The notes beneath the pieces were generated by a model that made no database searches, was not told the DNA's origin, and saw nothing but the letters and a program-made list of their open reading frames with translations. DNA of 64,000 bases from Corynebacterium cystitidis (GTDB taxonomy: Bacteria > Actinomycetota > Actinomycetes > Mycobacteriales > Mycobacteriaceae): contig NZ_LT906473.1 of NCBI RefSeq assembly GCF_900187295.1, positions 248,001 through 312,000 of the forward strand, written 5' to 3'. Numbering within the stretch: the stretch's first letter is position 1; each line of letters begins with the position of its first letter. Below, one piece after another: positions 8,560 through 53,378 of this stretch. Position numbers and translations under genes: made by a program.

Positions 8560-8578
8560 GGGGAAAGAAGATAATACT

Positions 8579-9499
8579 ATGAGTACCGTAACCCCTACTG
8601 ACAAGCAGATCTCCGGGGCGTCTGGCCCGACTTTTACTGAGATCTCATCTGGCCGTAAGACTATGAACACCTTCATGACCTTCATCATGTGGGCATGTAT
8701 GATCGTAGCTTTGATCCCACTGGCGTGGGTGCTGTGGACTGTGTTGTCAAACGGCATCGGTGCCGTCACCGATATCGACTGGTGGACCAAGGACCAAACG
8801 GGCACCATCCGTATCCTGCCCGGTGGCGGTGCGCTGCACGCGATTGTCGGTACGCTCGTGCAAACCTTCATCGCATCGATCGTGTCCATTCCATTGGGTA
8901 TCTTCACCGCGATCTACCTCGTCGAGTACGCGCAGGGTGGCTGGCTGGGACGTCTGACCACCTTCATGGTGGACATTCTCTCGGGCGTTCCTTCCATCGT
9001 CGCTGCACTATTCATCTACACGCTGTGGATCACCGTTCTCGGTCAGCAGCGTTCCGGTTTCGCAGTGGCACTGTCGCTGATCCTGCTGATGCTTCCGATC
9101 GTCGTGCGCAATACCGAAGAAATGCTGCGTGTTGTTCCCATGGATCTGCGCGAGGCGTCGTACGCCTTGGGTGTTCCGAAGTGGAAGACCATCGTGCGCA
9201 TCGTGTTGCCAACCGCATTGTCCGGCATCGTCACCGGTGTCATGCTGGCTGTTGCCCGCGTGATGGGTGAATCCGCACCAGTGCTGGTCTTGGTGGGCTC
9301 TACTTCAACTCTGTCCTGGAACCCATTCGGTGGCCCGCAGTCCTCGCTTCCGCTGATGATGCTGGAGATGTACAAGGCTGGTACGACCGATGTGTTGATG
9401 GACAAGCTGTGGGGCGCTGCTCTCACGCTTGTGATCTTGGTGGTGTCGATCAACCTGGTCGCCCGCTTGATCGCAGCCAAGTTCTCGGTTAAGAAGTAA
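8579..9499 (+). CDS. pstA: Phosphate ABC transporter permease
   Basis: PstA pairs with PstC to form the translocation channel. The 306-residue product has six predicted membrane segments, the PstA-type sequence VDILSGVPSIVAALFIYTLW and the coupling loop REASYALGVPKWKTIVRIVLP. It is 19 bp downstream of pstC with an AAGAAG-type ribosome-binding site, and 33 bp upstream of pstB, so it is clearly within the operon. Nothing is unusual in length or key motifs. Confidence 0.95.
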   Translation: MSTVTPTDKQISGASGPTFTEISSGRKTMNTFMTFIMWACMIVALIPLAWVLWTVLSNGIGAVTDIDWWTKDQTGTIRILPGGGALHAIVGTLVQTFIASIVSIPLGIFTAIYLVEYAQGGWLGRLTTFMVDILSGVPSIVAALFIYTLWITVLGQQRSGFAVALSLILLMLPIVVRNTEEMLRVVPMDLREASYALGVPKWKTIVRIVLPTALSGIVTGVMLAVARVMGESAPVLVLVGSTSTLSWNPFGGPQSSLPLMMLEMYKAGTTDVLMDKLWGAALTLVILVVSINLVARLIAAKFSVKK

Positions 9500-9532
9500 A
9501 CGCCGAAGTAAATCAAACTTTAGGAGAATAAG

Positions 9533-10306
9533 ATGTCTAAGCTTGTACTTAATGACGTCGACATTTACTACGGCGACTTCCACGCCGTACAGAACGTCAA
9601 CCTACGGATCCCAGCCCAGGCTGTGACCGCCTTCATCGGCCCATCCGGCTGTGGCAAATCCACCGTGCTGCGCACCCTTAACCGCATGCACGAGGTTATC
9701 CCGGGCGCTCACGTCAAGGGTGAAATCTTACTCGACGGGAAGAACATCTACGACAAAGATGTTGACCCGGTGTCGGTGCGTAACACCATCGGCATGGTGT
9801 TCCAGAAGGCAAACCCATTCCCAACCATGTCCATCGAGGACAACGTGGTAGCTGGCCTGAAGCTGTCTGGCGAGAAGGACAAGCAGAAGCTTAAGGAAGT
9901 GGCGGAGAGGTCTCTGCGTGGCGCTAACCTGTGGGATGAGGTCAAGGACCGTCTAGACAAGCCAGGTGGTGGCCTTTCTGGTGGTCAGCAGCAGCGTCTC
10001 TGCATCGCTCGCGCGATTGCTGTCCAGCCAGAGGTGCTGTTGATGGACGAGCCATGCTCCGCTCTTGACCCGATCTCAACTCTTGCAGTGGAGGATCTCA
10101 TCCACGAGCTGAAAGAAGAGTTCACCATCGTTATCGTGACCCACAACATGCAGCAGGCTGCGCGTGTGTCCGATAAGACTGCTTTCTACTCCCTCGAAGC
10201 AACTGGCAAGCCTGGTCAGCTCATCGAATTCGATGACACCAAGACCATCTTTGAAAACCCAAGTCGTAAGGAAACCGAAGATTATATCGCTGGCCGCTTC
10301 GGCTAA
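9533..10306 (+). CDS. pstB: Phosphate ABC transporter ATPase
   Basis: PstB hydrolyses ATP to drive phosphate import. The 257-residue protein shows Walker [10 protein letters not shown] near residue 40, the Q-loop ([11 protein letters not shown]), the ABC signature [15 protein letters not shown], Walker [14 protein letters not shown] and the switch His in [14 protein letters not shown] clear AGGAG ribosome-binding site precedes ATG 9533. It is the last gene of the pstSCAB operon and is followed by a strong terminator that separates it from convergent phoU. Confidence 0.97.
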
Positions 10307-14755: not shown

Positions 14756-15436
14756 ATGGCGATGGTATTGCGGGACCTTTCGCCCTGGAGCCCAACCTCC
14801 AGGGGAAGGCAACGGACTGTTCTATATCGGCCTTTGAAAAGATGTGTGGATATAACAATTTCTTCTGCGGCTCTGATCCTGCTGAGCCCAGTGATGTTAG
14901 TGATTGCCCTTATTGTCAAACTTGATGATGGTGGCCCTGTTCTTTTCCACCAGCGCCGAGTGGGGCATAACGGAAAAGAGTTCACCATGCTGAAATTTCG
15001 TACGATGAGAACCGATGCGGAGGAGCTGCTGCCAGAGGTCACCTACGCCCAAGCAGAAGGAGAACTAAAAAACGATCCGAAGCTATTCAAGCTTAAAAAG
15101 GATCCCCGAATTATTCGCTCCGGTACTTTGTTGCGCCAGTTCAGCTTGGATGAGCTGCCACAGTTTTTCAATGTGCTTGTCGGAGACATGAGCTTGATTG
15201 GTCCACGGCCACCGCTGGTTCGTGAAGTTGATCAGTACTGCGATGAGGAAAAGCGCCGTTTGAGCGTCAAACCGGGAATGACCGGTCTGTGGCAGGTATC
15301 AGGGCGCTCCAATTTGACCTGGGAGGAAACTATCAAACGCGACCTCTACTATGTCGACAATCACAACTCTTTGTTAGATTTTCGAATTTTCCTGAAGACT
15401 TTCAAAGCTGTTCTATCTCGAGATGGAGCCTACTAA
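14756..15436 (+). CDS. Priming sugar-phosphate transferase (WcaJ/RfbP C-terminal type)
   Basis: Polyprenyl-phosphate sugar-1-phosphate transferases start a polysaccharide repeat unit by loading the first sugar on undecaprenyl-phosphate at the inner membrane. The 226-residue product has one N-terminal hydrophobic segment (about 40-60) and the catalytic domain: KFRTMRTDAEE, FSLDELPQFFNVLVGDMSLI, GPRPP and KPGMTGLWQVSGR. It lacks the four extra N-terminal helices and CoA-binding-like domain of long members such as WcaJ, so it is a monotopic short form. It is first in a run of tightly linked genes; its stop overlaps the next start (TAATG). The sugar is unknown. Confidence 0.93.
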   Translation: MAMVLRDLSPWSPTSRGRQRTVLYRPLKRCVDITISSAALILLSPVMLVIALIVKLDDGGPVLFHQRRVGHNGKEFTMLKFRTMRTDAEELLPEVTYAQAEGELKNDPKLFKLKKDPRIIRSGTLLRQFSLDELPQFFNVLVGDMSLIGPRPPLVREVDQYCDEEKRRLSVKPGMTGLWQVSGRSNLTWEETIKRDLYYVDNHNSLLDFRIFLKTFKAVLSRDGAY

Positions 15437-15990
15437 TGCAACAGCGTCCGTCGGATGAAGGAAAAGTGCAGAAAGAAAACGCGAGTGACAGCAAAGATAA
15501 GTGCGCAGCAGTCGGCTATGTGCCTGGTGGGTTTGATATGTTCCATATCGGTCACCTGAATATCCTTCGCAAAGCACGAGAGCGTTGTGAATATCTTGTG
15601 GTCGGTGTTGCTACCGACGAATCCCTTGCCAGGATGAAAGGCCGACCACCGGTTGTGCCTCTAGCAGAAAGAATAGAAATTATTTCTAGTCTGCGCTTTG
15701 TCGATGAGGTGGTCACTGATATTGACCTGAACAAACAGGTTGCCTGGCGGCGCCGACCGTTCGATGTGCTCTTTAAAGGCGATGATTGGAAAGGTACAGA
15801 CAAAGGACACCGCTTAGAGGAAGAACTCGCTGCCGTCGGCGCGCGGGTGGAGTACTTGCCCTATACGCCAACTACATCATCAACGCTGTTGCGACAGTTT
15901 CTCACTCGAGAAGTTAGCGAAGAAAACAAGGCTGGTATCGCCCACGGTAACAACATCTCCTCTTCTCACGGTTTGAGAAAGAACATCTAG
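15436..15990 (+). CDS. Glycerol-3-phosphate cytidylyltransferase-like (TagD-like) nucleotidyltransferase
   Basis: The 184-residue product is a cytidylyltransferase of the HxGH superfamily: GGFDMFHIGHLNILRKAR holds the HIGH-type motif near residue 35, and GDDWKGTDKG plus VEYLPYTPTTSSTLLR match the TagD-type end. TagD makes CDP-glycerol from CTP and glycerol-3-phosphate for teichoic acid. The long ORF opens at 15289 inside the preceding gene, but ATG 15436 overlaps the upstream stop as TAATG and gives the right length. Its stop is immediately followed by the ATG of a CDP-alcohol phosphotransferase, suggesting the two act in sequence. Other substrates (ribitol, ethanolamine phosphate) cannot be excluded. 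Confidence 0.88.
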   Translation: MQQRPSDEGKVQKENASDSKDKCAAVGYVPGGFDMFHIGHLNILRKARERCEYLVVGVATDESLARMKGRPPVVPLAERIEIISSLRFVDEVVTDIDLNKQVAWRRRPFDVLFKGDDWKGTDKGHRLEEELAAVGARVEYLPYTPTTSSTLLRQFLTREVSEENKAGIAHGNNISSSHGLRKNI

Positions 15991-16788
15991 ATGAGCAAGG
16001 AAACAAGATCGAAAAACCCGAGGAGCAATCATCTACGCCCTCCAGTTAATGGGACTGCCAAACAGCGGTACCGGTGGGCGATACGTTCTCTTTCGGCGGC
16101 ACAGAAACCAGCGCAAGGGGTGCCGGCGTACACCCGTTGGGTCAATCGTCGCGGCGCACGTGTAGTCGCGGCCTTTGCTTATGCGTTGGGGTGGACACCG
16201 AATATGGTCACCGTTATTTCTGCGACATTGTCGCTGATCGGAATGGTAGTTATCATTTTTGCCCCACCGGTAGGGTGGACGGGGATAGTCGCCGCGATCT
16301 TCTTCGCCGCTGGGTATCTTTTTGACTCGGCAGATGGGCAGCTGGCGCGTGTCAGCGCAACATCCTCGGCAACTGGTGAATGGGTGGACCACGTTGTTGA
16401 TGCTTTTCGGTCTCCAGCAATCCATGTTGCAGTAGCGTTCGCCATAGTGCTGCACCGGCCTGATTATGCCTGGCTTGCTGTCGTTGCAGTCGGATACTCG
16501 ATAGTGACAAGTGGGCAGTTTCTGAGCCAGATTTTGGCTGAGGCCCTGATCCGCAAAGCTGGCAGAGCTCAAACCCGCGGGGGAAATCTCAGATCGTGGA
16601 TTCTATTACCTACTGACCCGGGCGTTCTGTGTTGGACGTTCATTCTGTGGGGCAGCGCTTCGCTGTTTTCTGTCGGATACGGGCTACTAGCGGCAGTGGC
16701 CGTTGCCCACGCACTGGTATCCATGAGACGGCGCTATCGGGATTTGCGGGCCCTAGACGTTGCTGGGCAGGAGGCGCGCCTTGCCTAA
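15991..16788 (+). CDS. CDP-alcohol phosphotransferase (integral membrane)
   Basis: Members move a phospho-alcohol from a CDP-alcohol to an acceptor, or make a phospho-alcohol linkage, in the membrane. The 265-residue protein contains the full active-site pattern DGxxARx8GxxxDxxxD (DGQLAR at about residue 115, then GEWVDHVVD) and about five to six hydrophobic helices. It directly follows the TagD-like gene with no gap, so the natural reading is that it uses the CDP-polyol made there. Phospholipid synthases share this signature, but this one is embedded in a polysaccharide operon. It may decorate the polymer or a lipid carrier with a phospho-polyol; the acceptor is unknown. Confidence 0.9.
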   Translation: MSKETRSKNPRSNHLRPPVNGTAKQRYRWAIRSLSAAQKPAQGVPAYTRWVNRRGARVVAAFAYALGWTPNMVTVISATLSLIGMVVIIFAPPVGWTGIVAAIFFAAGYLFDSADGQLARVSATSSATGEWVDHVVDAFRSPAIHVAVAFAIVLHRPDYAWLAVVAVGYSIVTSGQFLSQILAEALIRKAGRAQTRGGNLRSWILLPTDPGVLCWTFILWGSASLFSVGYGLLAAVAVAHALVSMRRRYRDLRALDVAGQEARLA

Positions 16789-17707
16789 GCTTAGCGTCAT
16801 CCTCCCCGCCCAGAATGCTGCCAGCACCGTCGCACGGGCTGTGTCCTCAACCCTGCGGGCATTACCGTCAGACGCAGAACTTGTCGTTCTTGATGATGGC
16901 TCAACTGATCACACGGCAGCCAGTGCCCGAGCTGGAGGGACCCGAAAAGGTGTCGTCGATAAGCGACTTCGAGTAGAAAGACGTGACGGTTCAGGAGGGA
17001 TAGCCACTGCGCTTAACTGGCTGCTGCACCATACTGACTCGGACTTTGTAGCGCGGATGGACGCCGATGATATCTGCTTGCCGTGGCGGTTTCATACTCC
17101 AGTTCGCGCCCTTGAATGCGGTGATGATGTCGTCTTTTCACAAGTGAACAACTTTACTGGGCGGAAGTTGAAACCGGCAGCTCCCGTGCCTATCCCGCCG
17201 GATGCTTTTCCGGTTCATCTCTTGCTTACTAACCCTGTCTCGCACCCAGCGATGGTGGCGCAAAGGTCAACCTTAGAAACTCTTGGTGGCTATCGCGAAG
17301 TCCCAGCGGAAGACTATGACCTGTGGATGCGGGCAGCGCTGCACGGCGCTCGCCTCCGCAGGGTAGCAAGTTGGGGGCTGTTGTACCGGGTCCACCCAGA
17401 ACAGATCACCGCCTCGCCCACATGGAGGCACGCTTCATGGCGCGATCCGCAGCAGGCTGAAACCTTTGCTCAGCTGAGCAAAAAAATCACCGGGGTCACA
17501 CTCGAACGCCTTGTGTCTATTGCACTTGCACCCCCAGAGGAAAAAGATGCACAACTGCGACACTTCGAAGATGCTGTTCTGTCAGCCATCAACGAGCTGA
17601 CAGGCCCGCAGCGACTCATTGTGAAAAACAAGCTGCATGCTCGCCTGGCGTGGGCCCGCAGCTATACTCACGAAACTACGTACACGGATCAAAACAGAGG
17701 TCACTGA
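16781..17707 (+). CDS. Family 2 glycosyltransferase
   Basis: A cytoplasmic GT-A glycosyltransferase that adds a sugar to the lipid-linked repeat unit. Motifs are LSVILPAQNAASTV at the start, VVLDDGSTDHT, the DxD pair in ARMDADDICLPWR near residue 92, and EDYDLWMRAALHG as the likely catalytic-base region. The TTG at 16781 is chosen because a perfect AGGAGG lies 6 bases upstream (16769-16774) and the protein then starts right at the first GT2 strand; this start overlaps the previous stop by 8 bp. Its stop overlaps the wzz start as ATGA. Donor and linkage are unknown. Confidence 0.9.
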   Translation: MPKLSVILPAQNAASTVARAVSSTLRALPSDAELVVLDDGSTDHTAASARAGGTRKGVVDKRLRVERRDGSGGIATALNWLLHHTDSDFVARMDADDICLPWRFHTPVRALECGDDVVFSQVNNFTGRKLKPAAPVPIPPDAFPVHLLLTNPVSHPAMVAQRSTLETLGGYREVPAEDYDLWMRAALHGARLRRVASWGLLYRVHPEQITASPTWRHASWRDPQQAETFAQLSKKITGVTLERLVSIALAPPEEKDAQLRHFEDAVLSAINELTGPQRLIVKNKLHARLAWARSYTHETTYTDQNRGH

Positions 17708-18900
17708 TGAAAACGGAGAACTATATCGAACACGCATCTGAAGGCTTTGATGGCATAGGGGCAATTCTGCGTCGTCGAAAAGCCTGGGTGGCGGCCGGGG
17801 TAATCTTGGGCCTGCTGGCTGCATTGGTGTTTACTCAGCTTGTGCCACGGCAGTACACCGCAACAGCACATGTGCACATAAGCGCACCAAAAGACGCCCA
17901 AGGCTCAGGAAAGTCATCGAAAAACGCGATCGATATGGATTCGCAGCGGGAGTTAGCTGGGTCAGAAAAGACGGCAAACGCTGCAGCCGACAAGCTTGGT
18001 GGTTCATGGACCAGCAGGGAGCTTCTCGACGGGGTCGAAGTCGGAGGTGATACAGAAAGCACCATCATGAGCGTGTCTTTTACTGCTGAATCTGCTGAAC
18101 GCGCAGTGGAAGGTGCGACAGGAATGGCGCAGGCCTTTATCCAGGTCGGGGCTGATTCCGCCAAAAAACAACACAACACTGCCGTAGCAGCAATCGATGA
18201 GCAAATTAAGCAGCAACAAGAGGCACTGGGCGCTCTGCAGAACTCTACTACCTGGCTTACCGAAGTTGAGCAGTCTCAGGCTGGTTCCTTGCGCGACTTT
18301 ATTACTGATCTCCAAGAGCGTCGCATCGAGCTTGAAACAACGGGAGATTTGAACCGGGAGATTATTACCGGGGCTGAAGCGAACCCAGTTACTTCGGGTC
18401 TCTCTGTGCTTCAGGCGTTGTTCCTCGGGCTAATAGGAGGTCTTGCCCTTGGTGTTGTCCTTGCCCTCATTGCTCATGCTACTTCTCGCAGACCCGCAGA
18501 TAGCGCAGAAATAGCAAGGATCGTCGGTGCGCCAATCTTCCGCCCAACGGCCACAGCAGGAGATGATACTGATACTCGGTGGAATTTAGCGACAATCTTC
18601 GCAGGCCACGCAATCGGTCAGGGGAAAAAAGCAGCGTTGCTTTTCGACGACCGCAACGACGCTTCCAGTAATGCAGCAAAGACAATGGCCAATAGCCTTG
18701 GCGCTGATTTGTACGGGGTAAAAGACAGCTGGATCGACGCGATAAAATTTGCAGGTGTTGTTGACGCGGTTGTGATTATTTTAGCTTCAACCTGGACGAA
18801 AGACGCCATCCGACGTCTGCGGGCTGATCTAGACAAGGTGGACGCGAACGTGGTGGGCGTTGTGGTCGCTGATGCGAAACCAGAGCCGGTTGGGAAATAG
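17707..18900 (+). CDS. Wzz-type polysaccharide copolymerase fused to a degenerate BY-kinase-like domain
   Basis: Wzz proteins set chain length of Wzy-made polymers. The 397-residue product has a first membrane helix (about 30-48), an extracellular coiled-coil-like part (about 50-235) with the post-helix segment PRQYTATAHVHIS, and a second helix near 240-262. The cytoplasmic part resembles a bacterial tyrosine kinase Rossmann fold: GKKAALLFDDRNDASSNAAK sits where Walker A belongs but lacks GxxGxGK(S/T), and VVDAVVIILASTWTKDAIRR then VVGVVVAD match the last strands. So an intact kinase is unlikely. The ATG overlaps the upstream stop (ATGA). No separate kinase or phosphatase gene is seen in the locus. 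Confidence 0.85.
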   Translation: MKTENYIEHASEGFDGIGAILRRRKAWVAAGVILGLLAALVFTQLVPRQYTATAHVHISAPKDAQGSGKSSKNAIDMDSQRELAGSEKTANAAADKLGGSWTSRELLDGVEVGGDTESTIMSVSFTAESAERAVEGATGMAQAFIQVGADSAKKQHNTAVAAIDEQIKQQQEALGALQNSTTWLTEVEQSQAGSLRDFITDLQERRIELETTGDLNREIITGAEANPVTSGLSVLQALFLGLIGGLALGVVLALIAHATSRRPADSAEIARIVGAPIFRPTATAGDDTDTRWNLATIFAGHAIGQGKKAALLFDDRNDASSNAAKTMANSLGADLYGVKDSWIDAIKFAGVVDAVVIILASTWTKDAIRRLRADLDKVDANVVGVVVADAKPEPVGK

Positions 18901-18910
18901 GGCGGAGATA

Positions 18911-20140
18911 ATGAGTACGGCTGAAAACCAACCGTTGATCGGGGTGGTCAATGCAGAAGATCGAACTCTGACAGTAATCTCTGGTTCGCCTCAAGCACAG
19001 GAAGCTTATGTTGTTGTCCGCTCACACGATAAAACTGTGGGCTATCAGCGCCTCACCGGATATCAATCGCAAGAAGAACTGATTGAGGAAGCAAGTGCAG
19101 CCAGTGTTGATCAACCTCGTCGCAGGCCGTGGACGGCAGGGCAGGGTGAAGGACATTTTGCCACGGTGATCATCTGCACGACGGGAACTAACCAACTCCT
19201 GCTTCGTGCGGTGGCTGCAGTTTTAGAACAACAACACCAAGATTTTGAACTTATCGTTGTAGACAACGCACCTCAGACTGGAAATGTGCGCAAGGTGTTA
19301 TCGTCGATTGATGATCCGCGGCTCCGGATTGTTGACGAGCCACAGGCGGGACTATCGCGTGCCCGCAACACAGGAGTGGCACATGCACGCGCTGACCTTG
19401 TCGCCTTCACAGATGATGATGCACTTGCTCACCCAGGCTGGTTAGGGGCGCTTATCGACGTGTTCGCTGCCGATCCGGGCCGCGCGATTGGAGCAGTCAC
19501 TGGACCTGTTTTTCCAGCTGAACTTGTGACCGAGGCGCAGCGCTACTTCGAAGCCAGGGGCGGCTTCCCGAAAACCCTGAGTCCCACGGTGTGGGCCTTA
19601 GGCGATCTGCTTGATCAAGTTAGTATCTTCGGCGATCCCGGCGAAGGGGGACCCCTGTACCCGATGACCACGGCCCGGATCGGGGCTGGAGTATCTATGG
19701 CTTTTCGTCGTCAAGCACTATCTGAAATGGGCTCTTTCGACATCTGCCTTGGCGCTGGAACAAAAGCGCGCGGGGCAGAAGACCTCGATGCCTTCGCACG
19801 CATCCTGCGGCTCGGCTACGCTATCGTGACCACACCAGATGCGGTGATGTACCACAGTCACCGCGTGGACCTAGCAGGGCTGAAAGCTCAGGCTTATGGC
19901 GATGGAGCAGGAATGGCAGCTTTATTAACAAAGTCAGTGATGCAAAACCCGGCAACCGTGTTGACCCTCGCGCGGCGCATCCCGGCTGTGCTGCGCCGCG
20001 TTGCACCGGGCTCGCAAAGGATGAGAGGATCTGAACCAGGGGTCCCTCCAGAACTGGCGCGACATGAGGTCTGCGGGTTCGTGAGCGGACCTGGCCTTTT
20101 CTTGTGTACAGTCGCGCGTCAGAGCTGTGGAAGGCGATAA
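18911..20140 (+). CDS. Family 2 glycosyltransferase
   Basis: A second GT2 enzyme, 409 residues. After about 75 N-terminal residues of unclear function, the catalytic domain begins at FATVIICTTGTNQLLLRAV, with VVDNAP, the donor-site FTDDDALAHPGWLG (DDD near residue 175), GAGVSMAFRRQAL and GAEDLDAFARIL. It most resembles rhamnosyl- or mannosyl-type GT2 enzymes, but the donor cannot be read from sequence. ATG 18911 follows GGCGGAGATA closely and lies 10 bp after wzz. The N-terminal extension before the GT-A fold is unusual and could be a carrier-binding or regulatory part. Confidence 0.85.
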   Translation: MSTAENQPLIGVVNAEDRTLTVISGSPQAQEAYVVVRSHDKTVGYQRLTGYQSQEELIEEASAASVDQPRRRPWTAGQGEGHFATVIICTTGTNQLLLRAVAAVLEQQHQDFELIVVDNAPQTGNVRKVLSSIDDPRLRIVDEPQAGLSRARNTGVAHARADLVAFTDDDALAHPGWLGALIDVFAADPGRAIGAVTGPVFPAELVTEAQRYFEARGGFPKTLSPTVWALGDLLDQVSIFGDPGEGGPLYPMTTARIGAGVSMAFRRQALSEMGSFDICLGAGTKARGAEDLDAFARILRLGYAIVTTPDAVMYHSHRVDLAGLKAQAYGDGAGMAALLTKSVMQNPATVLTLARRIPAVLRRVAPGSQRMRGSEPGVPPELARHEVCGFVSGPGLFLCTVARQSCGRR

Positions 20141-20142
20141 CC

Positions 20143-21438
20143 ATGCCCTCCATGTCGCAGTTGACGCGGTCTGTTCTTCCCGCATGGCCGGTCACGTTAC
20201 CGTTTGCAGCCTATGTTGTTTGGTGGCTTGTCGGAGTCGGGGATTTCATTTGGATTATTGCCGCAGCACTGATGGTGCTGACCTGGGCCGGACGAAAAAA
20301 CATGCGCTTTCCGGTGGTGATGTGGTTGTGGTTGGTCTACTTGATCTGGGTAGTGGCATCGCTAGCCATGAATGACACCACAGGAAGAGCACTCGGAGCG
20401 ATCTATCGGTTTCTTCTTTATGCCAGCGCTGGCCTATTTGCACTCCATATCTTTAATGCGCGAACGACAGTGACTGTGCGGCGCATGGGGAATGCAATGG
20501 TGTGGTTTCTTGTTGGCATGACAGCGGCTGGCTACCTGGCACTCGCTTTCCCGACCTTAACAATACGCACCCCCATGTCATACCTCATTCCGAACTCACT
20601 GCAACAGAATGAATTGATCGCAGACATGGTGATTCGCCATACCACGCACTGGAATCCGGACGCGTGGATTGAACAGGCTGTGCGGCCTGTCGCCCCGTTT
20701 CTCTACGCCAATACATGGGGAAATGTGTACTCGCTGCTGCTTCCGCTGGTGCTCATCCACCTGTGGGTGATGTGGCATACCCGCCAACGATGGTGGATTA
20801 TCGCTGTGATACTGCTCAGTGTGCTTCCTGCGCTTAGTACGCTTAATCGTGGCATGTTCATCGGTCTTGCAGTGGTGGGTGTGTGGGTCGCGGTGCAGGC
20901 CCTGCGTCGTGGAGCGTTCCTAATCACAGGTATGTGGGCGGCAGTGGGCGCCCTCGCGCTCGGAGGATGGGTAGCATCCCCGTTCGGGTTCAATCTGATT
21001 GCCCGGGTAACACAGACCGAGTCGACGCAAGACCGTCGCGTGTTGTACAGAGACACCATCGCAGGGACGATGGAATCGCCCCTGTTCGGCTTCGGTTCAC
21101 CACGGCCTGCTGCAGAGTCGTGGCTGCCTTCTGTCGGTACTCAGGGCCAGCTGTGGACGGTAATGTACTCGCACGGCTTTATCGGCCTAGGCCTTTTCCT
21201 CGGATTCCTTGTCTGCGTCCTGGCGCTGATGTGGAAGCGCCAGGACCCTGTTGGTGCGGTACTCGGTGGTATTGTTGCCGCAACACTGGTTGAAACCATA
21301 TTTTACGGAATGATGACCGGTATCTTTATCACGATGGTTGCAGTTGGTCTTGGGCTGCGGGCAGACACAATCGTTAACAGTTCGGATCGTCCGGGAAAGT
21401 TAACTCGGACAAGGTCCACAGCTGGCCGTTTCGGGTGA
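20143..21438 (+). CDS. Wzy-like O-antigen/EPS polymerase
   Basis: The 431-residue membrane protein has about ten to twelve hydrophobic helices and the Wzy/ligase family pattern: NTWGNVYSLLLPL, STLNRGMFIGLAVVG, then a periplasmic loop DRRVLYRDTIAGTMESPLFG with the conserved Arg residues and GFGSPRP. Wzy polymerases join lipid-linked repeat units outside the membrane. The context (Wzz, Wzx and priming transferase in the same locus) supports polymerase over ligase. ATG 20143 is 2 bp after the previous stop and has GGAAGG upstream. The last 65 bp overlap the convergent lipoprotein gene, an unusually long coding overlap. Confidence 0.83.
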   Translation: MPSMSQLTRSVLPAWPVTLPFAAYVVWWLVGVGDFIWIIAAALMVLTWAGRKNMRFPVVMWLWLVYLIWVVASLAMNDTTGRALGAIYRFLLYASAGLFALHIFNARTTVTVRRMGNAMVWFLVGMTAAGYLALAFPTLTIRTPMSYLIPNSLQQNELIADMVIRHTTHWNPDAWIEQAVRPVAPFLYANTWGNVYSLLLPLVLIHLWVMWHTRQRWWIIAVILLSVLPALSTLNRGMFIGLAVVGVWVAVQALRRGAFLITGMWAAVGALALGGWVASPFGFNLIARVTQTESTQDRRVLYRDTIAGTMESPLFGFGSPRPAAESWLPSVGTQGQLWTVMYSHGFIGLGLFLGFLVCVLALMWKRQDPVGAVLGGIVAATLVETIFYGMMTGIFITMVAVGLGLRADTIVNSSDRPGKLTRTRSTAGRFG

Positions 21439-22006
21439 AGGTGAGCAGCATGCGTGACCGGCCCTGGTCTTCCGAGGAACTAATCACGTTATTGTTTTCG
21501 TCGAGGGTTCGCACATCAGAGTTGTCTACGCACACATCATGGGTCACGGTGTCAGGCTGGGGGGACTCCACTTCCCGCGTGCTTGTTACGGATACATCAC
21601 CGTCAAGACGTAGTCCGGTAGTTTCAAGTTCAATGCGTTGGTTGTCGATGTCTTCAGTGGCCTGCCCGGAGAGGACTTGAGACATGTCGCGCACCACGGT
21701 GGGTTCTTTCAAAACGGTGTGGATCGCATTCAGCGTATCTTCGATAAAGGCTTGGTCTACTCGTGCAGACGTCTCCACTGCGGGGACTGGGGCCCCAGTG
21801 GTGATATCCGGCTGTTCGTCCTGTGGGTGTGTCTCTCGTCCTACAACTTCTTGGCCATCCTTTGAGGCCGAATCAGCTGTGACAGCGCTGTCTTGCTGTG
21901 TGGACGCACCCGAGAATTCTTCGTTGGGTTGCGCACACGATGCGACGCTGAGAGCGAGAGCTAGAGCTGCAAGCGAACCGAGCGAGCGGATAGGACCACG
22001 TTTCAT
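21374..22006 (-). CDS. Putative lipoprotein in polysaccharide locus
   Basis: A 210-residue predicted lipoprotein of unknown function. The signal MKRGPIRSLGSLAALALALS is followed by the lipobox VASC. ATG 22006 is chosen over a start at 22048 because it gives a standard signal peptide and has AGGAAA upstream. The mature part opens with about 60 low-complexity Gln/Asp/Ser/Thr residues, then a compact domain with two Cys near the end (HDVCVDNSD and the final PNC), which could form a disulfide. It is the only leftward gene in the cluster and overlaps wzy at its 3' end. I recognise no family. Confidence 0.8.
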   Translation of the reverse strand: MKRGPIRSLGSLAALALALSVASCAQPNEEFSGASTQQDSAVTADSASKDGQEVVGRETHPQDEQPDITTGAPVPAVETSARVDQAFIEDTLNAIHTVLKEPTVVRDMSQVLSGQATEDIDNQRIELETTGLRLDGDVSVTSTREVESPQPDTVTHDVCVDNSDVRTLDENNNVISSSEDQGRSRMLLTFTRNGQLWTLSELTFPDDPNC

Positions 22007-22061
22007 AATGCCCACTTTCCTAAGAAAAAATGAGGTGCCGAATGGCAAAAGGAGCTATCAA

Positions 22062-22076
22062 CTAAGTAGGACTTAG
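22062..22076. promoter_or_regulatory. Inverted repeat between divergent lipoprotein and wzx genes
   Basis: CTAAGT-AGG-ACTTAG is a perfect 6-3-6 inverted repeat in a 148-bp AT-rich divergent intergenic region. Its position suits an operator or a shared regulatory site. No known regulator consensus is assigned. Confidence 0.35.
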
Positions 22077-22154
22077 CAATAGTTTAGTTTCACTGTTGAA
22101 TACTGTATCACTATAAAGAATATTTTAAGAAACCTGTGAGAGTGAGGCACACTC

Positions 22155-23693
22155 GTGAAACGTTCGATGAACAGAAGGGGAGGGGCCGCGGTGGGCACAG
22201 GCAAGGAAGATGTCGAGCGACGTGAACTGGCGCGCGGAAGTGCTTTGAGCTTTGTTGGTTCTGTTACAAGTGCGGTGCTTGGTTTTGTGCTCACTATCGT
22301 GATTACGCGCCTTTTGGGTGCTGACGGAGCCGGAATAGTTTTTCAGGCCACAGGTGTGTTCGCGGTGGTTATGGCTTTCGCGAAGTTTGGAATGGACTCC
22401 ACCTCGGTGTACTTGCTACCACGATTGCTTGTCGACGATCCCCGCCAGGTCCGTGGCGCACTTAATGCGTGCCTGGCAATAGCGGTGGGATTCGGGTTGG
22501 TGCTGGTGGCAATAGTTGAGTTGCTTGCCCCTTGGCTGTGGGGCGACCAGCGCGAGGAATTACTGCACTCTGTGCAGGCAATCGTGTTGTTTGTCCCCTT
22601 TGGTGCTGTTTTTCTCATTTTGTCTGCATCACTTCGCGCTCTGGGGTCTGTGGTGGAGTATGTGCTGGTGTCCAACATTGCGGTTCCTGTGCTCCGACCT
22701 CCACTTGTCGCTATCGCGGCGGTAGCTGTTGGATCAGCGGTGGCGGTCAGTGTTGCGTGGGCGGTACCGCTTGCCATGATGGCGCTGGTAGCAGGGCTTC
22801 TGATACTGCGTCGGTTGCGTGTTATCGAAGCAGGTGTACCTGGCCCGATCTTTCCCGGGCGGCCGCGGTGGGTAGAGATCTGGAAATTCTCCGTGCCGCG
22901 GACAATAGCCGCCGGCCTCGAGCAGGCCATTGTCTGGTTTGATATTCTCCTGGTGGGGTGGCTGGCTAGCGATTATGCAGCGGGTATCTATGGCGGTGCG
23001 ACACGATTTGTCCAAGCCGGTTTGCTGGTTGATGCTGCATTGCGGGTTATAGTGTCTCCCCGCTTTTCGGCTTTGCTGCACCAGGGGGCTAGCAAACAAG
23101 TACAAGCACTCTATGTCACAGCTTCATCGTGGCTGGTGTTGCTGGGCACTCCGGCATATGTTCTGCTTGCCTTTTTCTCCCCAGTGTTTCTGGAGCTATT
23201 GGGAGACGAATTTACGCAGGGTTCAGTAGCACTGAGCATCCTGGCCGTTGGTATGGCGATTACTTTTTTGGCCGGAAATATTCACTCGCTGCTAATCATG
23301 AGTGGCCGTTCTGGCTGGGCTGCAACAAACAAGTTCATTGTTTTGATCGTCAATGTCACCGGAAACCTCCTGTTGATCCCGCATTTCGGGATTGAGGGGG
23401 CCGCAATCGCGTGGGCATTGTGTATGGCTTTGGACGCAGCACTTGCTTCGATCCAGGTCAGGATCTTCCTCCGGATTACTCCGAGTTTGATTGACGTTGT
23501 CCGGCCTTTTCTCATCGTGGTTATTTCTTTTGGGGTACCAGCTTTATTGGTTCGGTCGCAAGTGGGCAATTCGCTTGCCGGGATGCTCTTTACGGTTCTT
23601 GCCGGTGGCATTCTGTACTGCGCCGCGTGTTGGTGGTGGCGTAAGCCACTGCGGATCTCTGGTTTAACGTCGATGGTAAGTAAGAGGAAATAG
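22155..23693 (+). CDS. Wzx-type lipid-linked oligosaccharide flippase
   Basis: The 512-residue protein is of the MATE/MOP flippase superfamily that turns undecaprenyl-linked repeat units across the membrane. About 12 to 14 hydrophobic helices are seen; RGSALSFVGSVTSAVLGFVL and ITRLLGADGAGIVFQATGVF form the typical first two helices (polysaccharide synthesis family). The GTG at 22155 is the longest start; ATG 22167 and GTG 22191 are alternatives, the last having a strong GGGGAGGGG upstream. With the priming transferase, Wzz and Wzy it completes a Wzx/Wzy pathway. Confidence 0.88.
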   Translation: MKRSMNRRGGAAVGTGKEDVERRELARGSALSFVGSVTSAVLGFVLTIVITRLLGADGAGIVFQATGVFAVVMAFAKFGMDSTSVYLLPRLLVDDPRQVRGALNACLAIAVGFGLVLVAIVELLAPWLWGDQREELLHSVQAIVLFVPFGAVFLILSASLRALGSVVEYVLVSNIAVPVLRPPLVAIAAVAVGSAVAVSVAWAVPLAMMALVAGLLILRRLRVIEAGVPGPIFPGRPRWVEIWKFSVPRTIAAGLEQAIVWFDILLVGWLASDYAAGIYGGATRFVQAGLLVDAALRVIVSPRFSALLHQGASKQVQALYVTASSWLVLLGTPAYVLLAFFSPVFLELLGDEFTQGSVALSILAVGMAITFLAGNIHSLLIMSGRSGWAATNKFIVLIVNVTGNLLLIPHFGIEGAAIAWALCMALDAALASIQVRIFLRITPSLIDVVRPFLIVVISFGVPALLVRSQVGNSLAGMLFTVLAGGILYCAACWWWRKPLRISGLTSMVSKRK

Positions 23694-23811
23694 GCGCAAA
23701 CGAGACAGAATCAACCGCGGGGTAGGCTACCTAATGAAAGCTAAGGAAAAGATAATAAGCGCTGCTGTCTAGGGTGGTTTGATGGGGGTAGGAAATTCTC
23801 TTAAATCGGAA

Positions 23812-23819
23812 ATTAGCCT
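23812..23819 (+). promoter_or_regulatory. Weak DtxR-core-like sequence before the fibrinogen-like gene
   Basis: ATTAGCCT within GGAAATTAGCCTTAGATGG matches the DtxR consensus at only about 10 of 19 positions. It is listed because a much better site flanks the same locus at 14365. By itself it would not be called. Confidence 0.15.
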
Positions 23820-23908
23820 TAGATGGATTTCAGGCTATGCTTAGTTTCTATTGAAAGCTTGTCCTGTCCTTGTTGGGCAGCCGATTTAACCATCCAAGGC
23901 GGTTTTTA

Positions 23909-26900
23909 GTGAAGTTGCACAATTATGTCTCTGCTCTCGTTCTCGGCATCGCACTTACCCTGGGCCTCGCCGCGATACCTTCCCAATCCGCCGCTCTGGC
24001 AACGGCTCAAGAAAACAATGTTGAGGCCCCACCACGCGATGGGTCCTCGCCGGAGCGAGCGGCTGCCTCATGCTGGGCGATCAAACAAGAAAACCCGGGT
24101 AGTCCCGACGGTAGCTATTGGTTACTTTCCCCAGGAATGGAGCAGCCGCAGGAATTCTTCTGTGATCAAACTATGGATGGTGGCGGCTGGGTCATGGTCG
24201 GACGTGGCCGCGAGGGGTGGGACACCTACCCCCAGGGGCAGGGAGATCCCGCTGCGCTCACCCAGCGCAGCAGGACCCCTGCGGACTTTAAGCCAGTGCA
24301 ACTGCCTGAAAAAACAATCAACGGCCTGCTGTCCGGCCGGGCGGTCAACAGCCTCAACGATGGTTTTCGGGTGGTGCGTGCTACCCGAACATCTGGTGGG
24401 CCATGGCAAAGGGTAGATATCATTCCTGACCGTATGAAGGAGTGGACGTGGGCACTGCCGAGCGAGGATTCTGCTCGTTTCCGATTTGATGGCTCCCGCT
24501 GGTACCGCACTGATGTGATGGACCAACCATTTGGCAGAAACCACGGGACTGGAAGAATCGACTTGCTGATGACGCGGCAGCGTAATTACCAGGGTGGGTT
24601 TGGTTTTGGAACGTTTGTTTTTGGTGGCAATACTGACGCCAACAATTTCTTATGGACTCCTACCCGGAGGCATCCGCTGCCTTATTCCGAGGTGTACCTG
24701 CGTCCAGAGATTGCTAACGACGACCCTGGGTTTCAGCGGGTGCCGGATGCCGGTACTGAGGCGATTGAGCAACGCGCCCTGGTTTCCAACTTTGCTGCGC
24801 CGACCGACTGGGGTGTCACTGGTAACCTCACCGGTCGCACAGCAGAAGGAAACTCCCAGGGTCAGGCCTTTGCTCAGATCGGGGACACGATCTATGTTGG
24901 CGGTAACTTTACTGCAGCAACTCAGCGATCAACCCGAACCAATGTGCCCCGGACCGCTTTGGCAGCGTTTGACAAAAACACCGGTGAGCTGCGCCACGAG
25001 TTTAATGTGCAGTTTGATAACCAAGTCAAAGCTTTGTTGGCCATGCCCAATGGGAAACTCCTCGTTGGTGGTGAGTTCACCACGGTGAACGGACAGCCCC
25101 GGGCAGGCACTGTTCTTCTTGACCCGGTGACGGGTGCGGTGGATGAATCGTGGTCTTTAGAGGTGACCTCTCGTTTGTCCAACGGCATTATTTCCGTGCG
25201 TAGTTTCGCCCTGACAGATGAGCACGTGTACATTGGCGGTGCTTTTACACACCTGCGAGACGCGAACCGGGATTGGGTGTACGCGCGTTCAGCTGCACGT
25301 GTCTCCCACACCGGTGCACCAGACCGTGATTGGAATCCAGCATTTAACGGTTCTGTGATCGATATTGATACTTCTTCCGATGGCCAGCGGTTCTATGCCG
25401 GCGGCTATTTTACGGAATCAAATAAGAATACTGCGCATAAAGCTGCTATCTTGTCCACTGCTCCCGGAGCCGCGCCGGTGGACCCGAATTGGCGGTTTGA
25501 AGGTTCTGCACGTTATAGCAACAATTTCCAACAGGCGGTGCAGGAGAACGGTGGGCTGCTGTTTTTCGGTGGATCCCAGCACGCGTTGTTTGGTTACGAT
25601 ACCAATACATTGGAGCGGCGCTCAGGGTCCATCACAAAGCTTGACGGCGGTGACTTCCAGGCGATTGCAGGTAATGACGACATCACGTACGCGGGTTGTC
25701 ACTGCTCAGACAACACTTACCAGGGTGCCTACACGTGGCCGCCGATGAACCCTGATTGGCAACAAGTAGACAATATTCAATGGTTTGGTGCCTGGGATTC
25801 ACAAACGGGCGAACAGCTTGGGGATTTCAGCCCTTACTTCTTGAGGTCCAATAATGCTGGTGCGTGGAGCCTGTTCCTCGACTCCGATGGTGCTCTGTGG
25901 GCTGGCGGTGACTTTACTGGCTCACGCACCTCACCAACCAGGGCACAGTGGAACGGCGGTTTTGTGAAGTACCCGCCACGTGACGCAGTCGCTCCAGCAA
26001 CGCCACAGGGTGCCGCAATTCGTGGTGTCACCGGCGAGGGAGTAATCCTGGAATGGAGTCCCATCCACGATGCAGCCCACTACGAAATCATCCGCGATGA
26101 CAGAGTGATTGCGACAACGACGAACACCGAACTGACCGTTGCTCCCGGTGGTGAGAATCGCTTCTTTATCCGCGCTGTTGATGAGGCGGGGAATCGTTCA
26201 GCTTCGACTCCGTTGCTCCACACAGAGGTAGATCTTGACGAGGTTGTTGATGAAGCAGTCCTGATCGCCGTCGGTGCAGACTGGTTCTATTCCTATAATG
26301 CTGGCACACCGCAGGATGACTGGGCCCAACCAGGAGCGGATTACGGAGCGTGGGAGATCGGCGCTGCTCCTTTAGGCTACGGGGGTACTGATTTAGGCAC
26401 CGAGTTTGATGTTCCTGCTGCTGCGCAACGACCAATCACCACGTGGTTTGCTCACCAATTTGAGGTCCCAGATCCAACAACGTTTTCGCAGGCAACCTTG
26501 AGTTTTATTGCTGATGATGGGGCAGTGGTATATGTCAACGGGCATGAGGTCAACCGTACCCGCATGTCTGAAGGACCTGTTTCGCCGACAACTTTTGCAA
26601 ACGCCGCGATCTCAGCAGCTAGGGCTGCTGAGGAGCGGGTTGAGGTGGAGATTCCGTCCTACCTTCTTAAGCGAGGAACAAACACTGTCGCAGTGGAATC
26701 ACATCTTAACTACCGGGCTAGCCGCTCCTTGACCTTTGATGCACAGTTGGAGGTGACTGACTTTGGCCCCGCACCGCAACCGCCAGCGCGTCCGATTGAT
26801 CTTGTCCCTGCTGGGGATGACTGGGCAATGTGGTCGCAGTCTGCTGCCCCTGCTGATGATTGGATGAGTTCAGCTCAGCTCAATTCGTGGCAAACGGCAA

Positions 26901-27316
26901 CGGCGCCGGTGGGGTGGGGGCATGACCAGCTTGCAACTGAGCTGAACCCACCGGTGGCTCAAAGACCAGTGGTGAGCTACTTCGTCCGTGATTTTGAGTT
27001 CGACTCCACTGAGGTATCGGATCCGCTCAATGCCACGGTGCAGATAACAACGCGTGCCGACGATGGCGCCGTGGTTTATCTCAACGGTGAAGAGATTGGA
27101 CGGAAACGGATTTCTGATGGGCCTGTGACCCACAGAACCTATGCCAACGCTGCCGTTAATGCGAGACGTGCTCTCGAAGATTTATTGGTCATTGAGCTTC
27201 CTGTGTCTGTCCTGCGTGAAGGCAATAACCGGTTGGCTGTATCAACGCATCTGAATTACCGCAGGACGCCGTCAATGTCTTTCGACACGAATGTGCAGGT
27301 AGTACCTCATGCGTGA
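23909..27316 (+). CDS. Large secreted protein with fibrinogen-like, propeller-like, Fn3-like and twin C-terminal domains
   Basis: The 1135-residue product has a signal peptide (KLHNYVSALVLGIALTLGLA, cleaved after ALA near 32). Residues about 55-260 form a fibrinogen-related domain: CWAIKQ, FFCDQTMDGGGWVMVGRGREGW and GTFVFGGNTDANNF. Residues about 294-687 carry propeller-like repeats (IYVGGNFT, LLVGGEFT, VYIGGAFT, FYAGGYFT, LWAGGDFT). An Fn3-like segment (about 694-760) precedes two similar domains of about 165 residues (790-950, 970-1135), each with DDGAVVYxNGxE, GPV, HLNYR and a closing strand. GTG 23909 is chosen because AAGGCGG precedes it; the frame opens at 23870. No cell-wall anchor is seen. 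It may bind or process the polysaccharide; function unknown. Confidence 0.88.
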   Translation: MKLHNYVSALVLGIALTLGLAAIPSQSAALATAQENNVEAPPRDGSSPERAAASCWAIKQENPGSPDGSYWLLSPGMEQPQEFFCDQTMDGGGWVMVGRGREGWDTYPQGQGDPAALTQRSRTPADFKPVQLPEKTINGLLSGRAVNSLNDGFRVVRATRTSGGPWQRVDIIPDRMKEWTWALPSEDSARFRFDGSRWYRTDVMDQPFGRNHGTGRIDLLMTRQRNYQGGFGFGTFVFGGNTDANNFLWTPTRRHPLPYSEVYLRPEIANDDPGFQRVPDAGTEAIEQRALVSNFAAPTDWGVTGNLTGRTAEGNSQGQAFAQIGDTIYVGGNFTAATQRSTRTNVPRTALAAFDKNTGELRHEFNVQFDNQVKALLAMPNGKLLVGGEFTTVNGQPRAGTVLLDPVTGAVDESWSLEVTSRLSNGIISVRSFALTDEHVYIGGAFTHLRDANRDWVYARSAARVSHTGAPDRDWNPAFNGSVIDIDTSSDGQRFYAGGYFTESNKNTAHKAAILSTAPGAAPVDPNWRFEGSARYSNNFQQAVQENGGLLFFGGSQHALFGYDTNTLERRSGSITKLDGGDFQAIAGNDDITYAGCHCSDNTYQGAYTWPPMNPDWQQVDNIQWFGAWDSQTGEQLGDFSPYFLRSNNAGAWSLFLDSDGALWAGGDFTGSRTSPTRAQWNGGFVKYPPRDAVAPATPQGAAIRGVTGEGVILEWSPIHDAAHYEIIRDDRVIATTTNTELTVAPGGENRFFIRAVDEAGNRSASTPLLHTEVDLDEVVDEAVLIAVGADWFYSYNAGTPQDDWAQPGADYGAWEIGAAPLGYGGTDLGTEFDVPAAAQRPITTWFAHQFEVPDPTTFSQATLSFIADDGAVVYVNGHEVNRTRMSEGPVSPTTFANAAISAARAAEERVEVEIPSYLLKRGTNTVAVESHLNYRASRSLTFDAQLEVTDFGPAPQPPARPIDLVPAGDDWAMWSQSAAPADDWMSSAQLNSWQTATAPVGWGHDQLATELNPPVAQRPVVSYFVRDFEFDSTEVSDPLNATVQITTRADDGAVVYLNGEEIGRKRISDGPVTHRTYANAAVNARRALEDLLVIELPVSVLREGNNRLAVSTHLNYRRTPSMSFDTNVQVVPHA

Positions 27317-28112
27317 GAATGATTCGGTGGAGAGCAAACGCCGTGAATCCGCCAAGAAGCGTTCGGCTAGCCCCACGGCTAGCCCAGCGGTGGCAGCTAC
27401 CCCCGCAGTGAAGGCCTTTGCCTTGAGCATGAACCAGCCCGGCACTGTAGCGACATGGCTGAATCATTGGTCTGTGCAGCGTGCTCGCTGGTCCGCGCTG
27501 GCTCAGATCGATCTGATTGGTGTTGATGGAACCTTGCTGCAAATGCTGTTGCGTACCTATGGGTTCCCCCTGTCGCGCACTTCGGCTGACTTAGTCCTCC
27601 CAGTATTCTTCGGTGAAGTGGCAGAACCTGGAACCCGGGTGGCATTGATTGGTGCAAAACCAGGAGTTGCGCAGAGAAGTGCCAAGAAACTACAACACAC
27701 CTATCGTCTTGTTGCTTGTGGCTTCGACGGTTATGGGCAGTTGGGCACGTTGAGAGACAATCCAGAAGAGCTGGCCCAGTTTGCTCCTGATGTGATCGTG
27801 TTGGGGCTCGGGGCAGGTCTCCAAGATGAAGTGGCAGTGGAATTTCACAGGCATTTTCCCCAGGCCATTATCTGTACTGCCGGGGGCTGGATTGATCAGT
27901 TTGCTGCCAAGCAGCAGTACTTCCCCGCCTGGGTTCACCGGCTTCGATTGGGCTGGGCATGGCGAATTTATCATGAGCCACGCCGTCTGCTAGGTCGCTA
28001 CACCCGTGACGCGTTGGGGTTCTTGGTCGGCCATCGTCGGGTGATTCGCAAAATCCTTGCGCTGCCACATCAGGCCACCATCACTGGTCTACAACGCGCC
28101 GAGACAGCATAA
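27309..28112 (+). CDS. WecG/TagA/CpsF family (GT26) glycosyltransferase
   Basis: GT26 enzymes add the second sugar (ManNAc or ManNAcA) to a lipid-linked first sugar. The 267-residue protein has GVDGTLLQMLLR, ALIGAKPGVAQRSAKKL, FAPDVIVLGLGAGLQDE in place of the usual ALGxPxQE, and the C-terminal membrane-contact region PAWVHRLRLGWAWRIYHEPRRLLGRY. An Ala/Ser/Pro-rich tail of about 40 residues precedes the domain. It starts 8 bp inside the fibrinogen-like gene. TagA and TagD homologues in one locus recall wall teichoic acid linkage synthesis, but no TagB/TagF polymerase is present. The changed catalytic-region motif suggests a different donor. Confidence 0.85.
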   Translation: MRENDSVESKRRESAKKRSASPTASPAVAATPAVKAFALSMNQPGTVATWLNHWSVQRARWSALAQIDLIGVDGTLLQMLLRTYGFPLSRTSADLVLPVFFGEVAEPGTRVALIGAKPGVAQRSAKKLQHTYRLVACGFDGYGQLGTLRDNPEELAQFAPDVIVLGLGAGLQDEVAVEFHRHFPQAIICTAGGWIDQFAAKQQYFPAWVHRLRLGWAWRIYHEPRRLLGRYTRDALGFLVGHRRVIRKILALPHQATITGLQRAETA

Positions 28113-34124: not shown

Positions 34125-34200
34125 GGGCCTTTAGCTCAGTTGGTAGAGCTACGGACTTTTAATCCGCAGGTCGCGGGTTCGATCCCCGCAGGGCCCACCA
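34125..34200 (+). tRNA. tRNA-Lys (TTT)
   Basis: A complete cloverleaf: acceptor GGGCCTT/AGGGCCC, D-stem GCTC/GAGC, anticodon loop CTTTTAA giving TTT, T-stem GCGGG/CCCGC and encoded CCA. A TAAAAT box at 34109-34114 may be its -10. Its 3' half from 34150 is supplied by the integrated element. Confidence 0.96.
34150..34198 (+). repeat. attL: 49-bp tRNA-Lys 3' core
   Basis: This is the left copy of the att core, within the intact tRNA-Lys from the anticodon arm through the first C of CCA. It is identical to 40328-40376; the base before it differs between the copies (C here, T at the right end). Confidence 0.95.
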
Positions 34201-42113: not shown

Positions 42114-42186
42114 GCTCCCATCGTCTAGAGGCCTAGGACTCCGCCCTTTCACGGCGGCAACACGGGTTCGAATCCCGTTGGGAGTA
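42114..42186 (+). tRNA. tRNA-Glu (TTC)
   Basis: Anticodon stem CCGCC/GGCGG with loop CTTTCAC gives TTC. T-stem CGGG/CCCG and acceptor GCTCCCA/TGGGAGT (first pair G-T) complete the cloverleaf. CCA is not encoded. Confidence 0.93.
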
Positions 42187-42219
42187 CGAAGAGCCCTCGG
42201 TTCTTCCATAAATAAATAA

Positions 42220-42296
42220 GGCCCTGTGGCGCAGTTGGTTAGCGCGCCGCCCTGTCACGGCGGAGGTCGCGGGTTCAAGTCCCGTCAGGGTCGCCA
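42220..42296 (+). tRNA. tRNA-Asp (GTC), copy 1
   Basis: Loop CTGTCAC gives anticodon GTC. Acceptor GGCCCTG/CAGGGTC, discriminator G, and encoded CCA (42294-42296). The mature part is identical to the copy exactly 300 bp downstream. Confidence 0.95.
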
Positions 42297-42519
42297 TTGC
42301 TTCCAAGGCTCAGTTCATTCGAACTGGGCCTTTTGCTTATCGACGATCGTTTGAAGCTCTAGCGCGTGACTCTAGTGCGCAGTTCTATTGCGCAGTTCTA
42401 GAAAGCCTAAAGTAGCGTGTTAACTGGTGATTTGTCCCATGGCTCAGACAATGTGTAAGGTATTAACTCGTGCGCACGTCAGGCTGAAGCTTCGTCGTAA
42501 AGCGTATGAAACTAGATAA

Positions 42520-42593
42520 GGCCCTGTGGCGCAGTTGGTTAGCGCGCCGCCCTGTCACGGCGGAGGTCGCGGGTTCAAGTCCCGTCAGGGTCG
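42520..42593 (+). tRNA. tRNA-Asp (GTC), copy 2
   Basis: A second identical tRNA-Asp body, without encoded CCA. The sequence between the copies holds no gene and is not itself repeated. Confidence 0.95.
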
Positions 42594-42622
42594 CTGAAAC
42601 ATACGTGTAATGCGTGGTTTCT

Positions 42623-42695
42623 GGCCAGATAGCTCAGTCGGTAGAGCACACGCCTGAAAAGTGTGGGGTCGCCGGTTCGATCCCGGCTCTGGCCA
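42623..42695 (+). tRNA. tRNA-Phe (GAA)
   Basis: Acceptor GGCCAGA/TCTGGCC, anticodon loop CTGAAAA giving GAA, T-stem GCCGG/CCGGC. It is last in the Glu-Asp-Asp-Phe cluster and is followed by a strong hairpin. Confidence 0.95.
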
Positions 42696-48045: not shown

Positions 48046-52988
<4,943 letters not shown>

Positions 52989-53233
52989 CAAACACCCAGG
53001 GATATGACATAGAGTGTTGTTGGGTGGTTGAAGCGAAACACAAAAAGCATCATTGTGGTGCTTGCGTCTACTATGCAGTGTCTGACACAGCACACATACA
53101 TGTGTGTGAGTCATATATATAAGTCAATATTGGTCTACTGGTCACTGTGTTGAGGTGATCCTGATCGACATACATACACTATCCCCCCACTGTTTGGGTG
53201 GGGAGTACTGGTGTGGGATGCCCTTTATGGTGT

Positions 53234-53350: not shown

Positions 53351-53378
53351 CTAAAAACTAGATATAGCAACAAAATAC

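Follow-up and report, generated by a model that had tools for sequence, protein, structure and literature searches.

A Wzx/Wzy polysaccharide locus of Corynebacterium cystitidis with a gap-free cytidylyltransferase and CDP-alcohol phosphotransferase pair: a candidate system for phospho-alcohol modification of a surface polymer

Corynebacterial envelopes are usually described by their arabinogalactan and lipoglycans. A Wzx/Wzy locus is not new in the genus, since Corynebacterium glutamicum has one, with Wzx, Wzy, Wzz and glycosyltransferase genes in the cg0419-cg0438 region, where deletion of two of the glycosyltransferase genes reduced the mannose and arabinose content of its surface polysaccharide, according to the available portion of PMC7305114. 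Here we describe a locus of this type in Corynebacterium cystitidis, at positions 14756-28112 of a 64,000-nucleotide stretch of contig NZ_LT906473.1 (hereafter the window), whose unusual part is a phospho-alcohol module: a TagD-like cytidylyltransferase gene paired with a gene for a class I cytidine diphosphate (CDP)-alcohol phosphotransferase (CDP-AP). The C. glutamicum locus, compared by description only, differs in that the accessible text of PMC7305114 names neither such a pair nor a secreted protein with a GGGW domain. CDP-alcohol phosphotransferases form a family best known for making membrane lipids, and polysaccharide modification is the most likely role here. Our favored reading, in which we have moderate confidence, is that these genes direct the synthesis of a Wzx/Wzy-type surface polysaccharide with a small phospho-alcohol on its repeat unit, glycerol phosphate being the most plausible one.

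The nearest solved structure to the window CDP-AP, by sequence and by fold, is AF2299 of Archaeoglobus fulgidus (PDB 4O6M, 4O6N, 4Q7C), a class I CDP-alcohol phosphotransferase for which the accessible part of Clarke et al. 2015 gives CDP-glycerol as the donor. AF2299 carries a fused cytidylyltransferase-like domain, whereas the window encodes its cytidylyltransferase in a separate gene, and no PDB match ties the window protein to that domain. AF2299 is not known to lie in a Wzx/Wzy locus. On the cytidylyltransferase side, the glycerol-3-phosphate enzymes TagD and TarD (1COZ, 2B7L) have the HxGH, GDDW and (S/T)ST motifs in common with the window enzyme. A nucleotidyltransferase gene also lies near a CDP-alcohol phosphotransferase gene in a putative alternative inositol-lipid cluster of Bacteroides vulgatus, for which the excerpted text of PMC9246714 proposes a small CDP-alcohol; that cluster is tied to an inositol-phosphate synthase and to lipids rather than to Wzx/Wzy, its nucleotidyltransferase belongs to a different family according to the authors, who present lipid synthesis from a small CDP-alcohol in Bacteroidetes as proposed and unconfirmed. 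Among the papers listed in searches of open-licence PMC full texts (25 of 707 in the last search), none described a cytidylyltransferase and CDP-AP pair in a polysaccharide locus; the available text of an Actinoplanes exopolysaccharide paper (PMC13390465) contains neither "CDP-alcohol" nor "cytidylyltransferase", and that of the lipocone paper (PMC12419801) names CDP-alcohol enzymes solely for archaeal lipids.

The block consists of eleven genes, ten on the plus strand and one on the minus strand, with families assigned by scanning the plus-strand proteins, ten in all, against Pfam and NCBIfam:

14756-15436, plus strand: priming transferase of 226 residues, polyprenyl-phosphate hexose-1-phosphate type (PF02397, 229.6 bits; the sole PF02397 match in the genome)
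15436-15990, plus strand: TagD-like HxGH cytidylyltransferase, proposed CDP-alcohol maker (PF01467, 62.9 bits; cut-off 21)
15991-16788, plus strand: class I CDP-AP, proposed to transfer phospho-alcohol to lipid-linked glycan (PF01066, 44.9 bits; cut-off 22)
16781-17707, plus strand: glycosyltransferase family 2 (GT2) enzyme, TTG start chosen (PF00535, 70.4 bits)
17707-18900, plus strand: Wzz-type chain-length protein (PF02706, 28.2 bits; cut-off 25.5)
18914-20140, plus strand: second GT2 glycosyltransferase, start chosen (PF00535, 83.7 bits)
20137-21438, plus strand: Wzy-like polymerase, start chosen (PF04932, 26.1 bits, below the cut-off of 31.7)
21374-22048, minus strand: antisense putative lipoprotein, conserved in 9/9 other Corynebacterium blocks (lipobox-like LSVASC, by eye)
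22155-23693, plus strand: Wzx-type flippase (PF01943, 54.8 bits; cut-off 28.2)
23870-27316, plus strand: secreted protein of 1148 residues, proposed polymer binder (NF040941, 67.4 bits; cut-off 30)
27309-28112, plus strand: glycosyltransferase family 26 (GT26; WecG/TagA/CpsF) enzyme (PF03808, 100 bits; cut-off 27.4)

These assignments bear out a first-pass annotation of the same sequence that had named a priming transferase, Wzx, Wzz and three glycosyltransferases, all of which are matched by their Pfam families. Its Wzy falls short of the PF04932 cut-off, yet has an orthologue in the same place in 9/9 other Corynebacterium blocks. The cytidylyltransferase and CDP-AP genes abut with a gap of zero, as it had described. 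The secreted protein and the minus-strand lipoprotein were absent from it. The TAA of the priming gene overlaps the ATG of the TagD-like gene at 15436, the chosen GT2 start at 16781 lies inside the 3' end of the CDP-AP gene, and from this arrangement the first genes of the block look translationally coupled.

The distribution of the pair favors a link to polysaccharide synthesis. A CDP-AP orthologue (E <= 1e-20) occurs in 10 of 242 Corynebacterium genomes, and the TagD-like query (E <= 1e-12) matches 15 of the 242, namely the same 10, at 67-79% identity (100% for its own copy), plus five others, of which four lie at 32-37% identity and one is a 44-residue remnant. The pair is accompanied by the polysaccharide block in all 10 genomes, and all eleven block features were found in the other nine with profiles built from the orthologues, two stretches being combined for the count in each of four genomes (G012, G026, G027, G029). 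With the order of the genes seen again in other genera, and both halves present at 66% identity or more in the same 10 genomes, the pairing is above chance. The closest database homologues of the CDP-AP, TagD-like and secreted proteins are themselves C. cystitidis proteins (93, 95 and 96% identity). The priming gene lies upstream in C. pilosum, as it does in the window; in the other eight genomes it sits past the GT26 gene on the opposite strand, with an open frame of 496, 482 and 228 residues in the three measured. The suggestion that the module is rare in Corynebacterium thus survives comparison of gene content, and "unusual" is apt within the genus, but the block is not limited to this genome and is better seen as a conserved, patchy actinobacterial one. 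The 44-residue remnant (G019, L074:9876-10007) shares 79.5% identity with the L021 copy, and its 19.9-kb stretch shows no further gene of the block at E <= 1e-4, an apparent scar which suggests that loss can take the whole block at once. In G012 the GT26 match falls in two frames (L037:3663-4374) through a frameshift or a sequencing error; the gene is whole in G073, a genome with similar scores for the other genes of the block.

At the level of the phylum, CDP-AP (E <= 1e-25) was found in 8 of 396 sampled genomes, and the block is therefore patchily distributed; named homologues of CDP-AP or the TagD-like protein include members of Actinomyces, Schaalia, Propionibacterium, Cellulomonas, Beutenbergia and Microbacterium. 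For a distant set we took 16 loci from outside Corynebacterium in which the CDP-AP homologue is clear (L018, L019, L020, L029-L034, L057-L063), leaving out four clostridial loci with weak matches of 37-42 bits (L022-L025). Of the 16 stretches, 13 hold a homologue of Wzz, Wzx, Wzy or the priming transferase, and nine hold a TagD-like gene; the CDP-AP gene lies downstream of a priming transferase gene in L019, L020 and L029, and in L019 and L029 a glycosyltransferase family 4 gene separates the two. The tie between CDP-AP and polysaccharide genes is strong, not universal. A scan of 29 chosen neighboring proteins from six of the distant loci, with mechanical frame choice, revealed no enzyme that would betray the alcohol. 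In L033 (9112-10668) and L034 (9469-10984), from two other genomes of the same taxonomic order, CDP-AP stands between a close TagD-like match and a weak one.

The CDP-AP protein itself carries the D1xxD2G1xxAR...G2xxxD3xxxD4 signature at residues 112-137, and the catalytic motif with its Arg is kept in 67/67 aligned relatives, in the strict AR form in 57. Its predicted model, with helices counted by DSSP, has the six-helix membrane fold, and the accessible part of Clarke et al. 2015 links the six-helix form to soluble acceptors. These features bear on the possibility that the pair makes a membrane lipid in a Kennedy-type reaction, joining a CDP-alcohol to diacylglycerol or another lipid, as for phosphatidylglycerol or a lipid anchor of the polymer. 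The additional helices found at the C-terminus of enzymes with lipid acceptors appear to be missing from the model. The genome holds three PF01066 genes, encoding a phosphatidylglycerophosphate (PGP) synthase and a phosphatidylinositol phosphate (PIP) synthase, both over curated cut-offs, and the window CDP-AP, and none of the three is a phosphatidylserine synthase. CDP-AP scores 41.6 bits against the PIP synthase equivalog NF045883 (cut-off 170), for which the genome's own PIP synthase reaches 243.6; in a gapped, sequence-only alignment with RsPIPS (R153, R191), the transmembrane helix 6 Arg, taken as R191, aligns with Ser244 of CDP-AP, and the RxxR motif stands opposite a gap. The phospholipid head-group role that had been raised as a refuting case is made less likely by the separate PGP and PIP synthases, by the predicted six-helix model and by the co-occurrence of the pair with the block in each of just 10 of 242 genomes, and we regard a lipid product as distinctly unlikely.

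Within the TagD-like family, both histidines of the HxGH motif (HIGH, residues 37-40) are invariant in 33/33 aligned members, all 33 match both TIGR01518 and TIGR02199 at E <= 1e-5, and the window protein also has the GDDW and SST motifs. A phmmer comparison with 1COZ gave 48 bits, and the family profile scored 62.6 bits against one domain of human ethanolamine-phosphate cytidylyltransferase (ECT), 62.9 against TagD and 61.5 against a domain of Fom1 (5x3d, recorded as phosphoenolpyruvate phosphomutase). Since these scores are nearly equal and the protein stays below the family cut-offs, the donor alcohol is not readable from sequence. Glycerol is our preferred candidate by analogy, because AF2299, the nearest relative of CDP-AP, takes CDP-glycerol and no source of the alternative alcohols turned up; glycerol-3-phosphate is a general metabolite. 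No choline/ethanolamine kinase of PF01633 was found in the genome, with C. glutamicum matching in the control. Ribitol phosphate, named beside glycerol phosphate in the first-pass annotation, is less likely: the genome has no TarI candidate, and its IspD-family matches are only IspD and a second that proved to be GlmU. The Fom1-domain match prompted a search for a phosphoenolpyruvate mutase, and the phosphonate reading was dropped for this genome when the only PF13714 match in the genome turned out to be PrpB, over its cut-off. Inositol as the donor alcohol was also set aside, against the background that inositol-phosphate cytidylyltransferases belong to another fold. Three homologues (P0122, P0123, P0132) have two tandem HxGH domains, as human ECT does; an apparently fused pair (P0084) was treated as a chimera and left uncounted, as its junction lies on letters common to both proteins and the end of the first protein is missing.

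Several observations weigh against phospho-alcohol decoration by this pair. The label "TagD-like" stands for fold and motifs, but the protein reaches 66.4 bits against TIGR01518 (TagD; equivalog cut-off 165.4), scores higher against TIGR02199 (HldE adenylyltransferase domain; 78 bits, cut-off 181.5) and lies under every equivalog cut-off. Tyr143 replaces the RTEGISTT-type Arg in 33/33 aligned members, where TagD, ECT and choline-phosphate cytidylyltransferase (CCT) have Arg. The PF01633 family, searched for a choline/ethanolamine kinase, misses some ethanolamine kinases. The class I enzymes covered in the accessible part of Clarke et al. 2015 act on lipids, inositol compounds and small solutes, not glycans. 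Among the distant loci, no polysaccharide core gene was found in the stretches of L030, L031 and L032 (3/16), the last being a 9.4-kb contig with CDP-AP close to the contig end, and in seven (L019, L020, L029, L030, L031, L032 and L058) the stretch lacks a TagD-like gene, so that some relatives must draw their CDP-alcohol from elsewhere.

The phospho-alcohol could also lie in the main chain or in a linkage, between repeats or between chain and wall as in a teichoic acid, rather than in a side group. The TagD-like enzyme and GT26 share one locus, and the genome has two LytR-CpsA-Psr genes for wall attachment, which makes covalent anchoring of the polymer to the wall possible. Set against this are the dedicated Wzx, Wzz and Wzy-like proteins, the score of GT26 against the TarA equivalog (44.7 bits, cut-off 350), and the PF04464 search, which found no TagB/TagF family member in the genome, as had been stated earlier, and matched 3 of 14 control genomes including Bacillus subtilis. 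We consider a main-chain or linkage position unlikely. The earlier TagA/WecG label for GT26, the enzyme on which the resemblance to teichoic acid rests, holds at the level of the family but not for TarA; what remains of the proposed phospho-polyol polymer is a Wzx/Wzy locus with the pair, rare in the genus, while the alcohol is chosen by analogy and the likeness to teichoic acid was overstated.

A further alternative is that the pair serves another pathway housed in the operon, such as synthesis of a soluble DIPP-like phosphodiester or HldE-like activation of a sugar phosphate. The pair occupies a gap-free, coupled position within a polysaccharide operon, its association with the block is conserved across genera, and the transferase bears the CDP-alcohol motif, which in this family is unsuited to an ADP-sugar; a separate pathway appears very unlikely.

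In the mechanism that we favor, decoration of a lipid-linked repeat unit, the priming transferase would load hexose-1-phosphate onto undecaprenyl phosphate, and the two GT2 enzymes and GT26 would lengthen the primed lipid. The TagD-like enzyme would convert cytidine triphosphate and a phospho-alcohol to a CDP-alcohol. The six-helix CDP-AP, working at the cytosolic face of the membrane, would use this donor to place the phospho-alcohol on a hydroxyl group of the glycan while it is lipid-linked. The product would then be flipped by Wzx, polymerized by Wzy and given its length by Wzz, and the secreted GGGW/propeller protein would bind the finished polymer. The gene content, motifs, folds, co-occurrence and absence of rival genes are observed here; from them we infer the order of these steps, the acceptor, the alcohol, what the secreted protein does, and that the phospho-alcohol sits on a side branch rather than in the main chain. 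In this reading, CDP-AP would be accompanied by its own cytidylyltransferase and, in close relatives, also by a dedicated secreted protein that recognizes the modified polymer. If this is correct, class I CDP-alcohol phosphotransferases gain a role in polysaccharide decoration, a capsule-like polymer acquires charged phosphodiester groups without a TagB/TagF enzyme, and a minority of corynebacteria, as well as relatives such as Actinomyces, Schaalia and Propionibacterium, bear a phosphate-containing surface polysaccharide.

The product of 23870-27316 comprises a GGGW domain, a beta-propeller and two mutually similar C-terminal beta domains. Fold searches, in which the domains were not searched singly, returned the propeller and, with TM-scores that were very low, glycosidases; no catalytic domain was identified, and an enzymatic role was set aside. 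The 3' end of the antisense lipoprotein gene overlaps that of the Wzy-like gene, and its translation probably begins inside the open frame, near 22012. No Pfam family exceeds its cut-off for this protein, which is matched also in L018 and L058; lying between the Wzy-like and Wzx genes, it is possibly a factor acting on the exported polymer.

Just 5' of the block is a 644-base stretch with a GC content of 0.435. The flanking genes are one for a succinyl-CoA:acetate CoA-transferase, over its family cut-off, and on the other side a putative cydC. A few kilobases upstream of the block, the phosphate uptake genes pstC, pstA and pstB (7462-10306, plus strand) score over their cut-offs, and a phosphoglucomutase gene at 57532-59187 (plus strand; TIGR01132, over cut-off) is a possible supplier of sugar-1-phosphate. 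The window also holds tRNA genes at 34125-34197, 42114-42695 and 61885-61957, and a complete rRNA operon (16S, 23S, 5S) at 48046-53351 on the plus strand, which accounts for the strong GC skew there.

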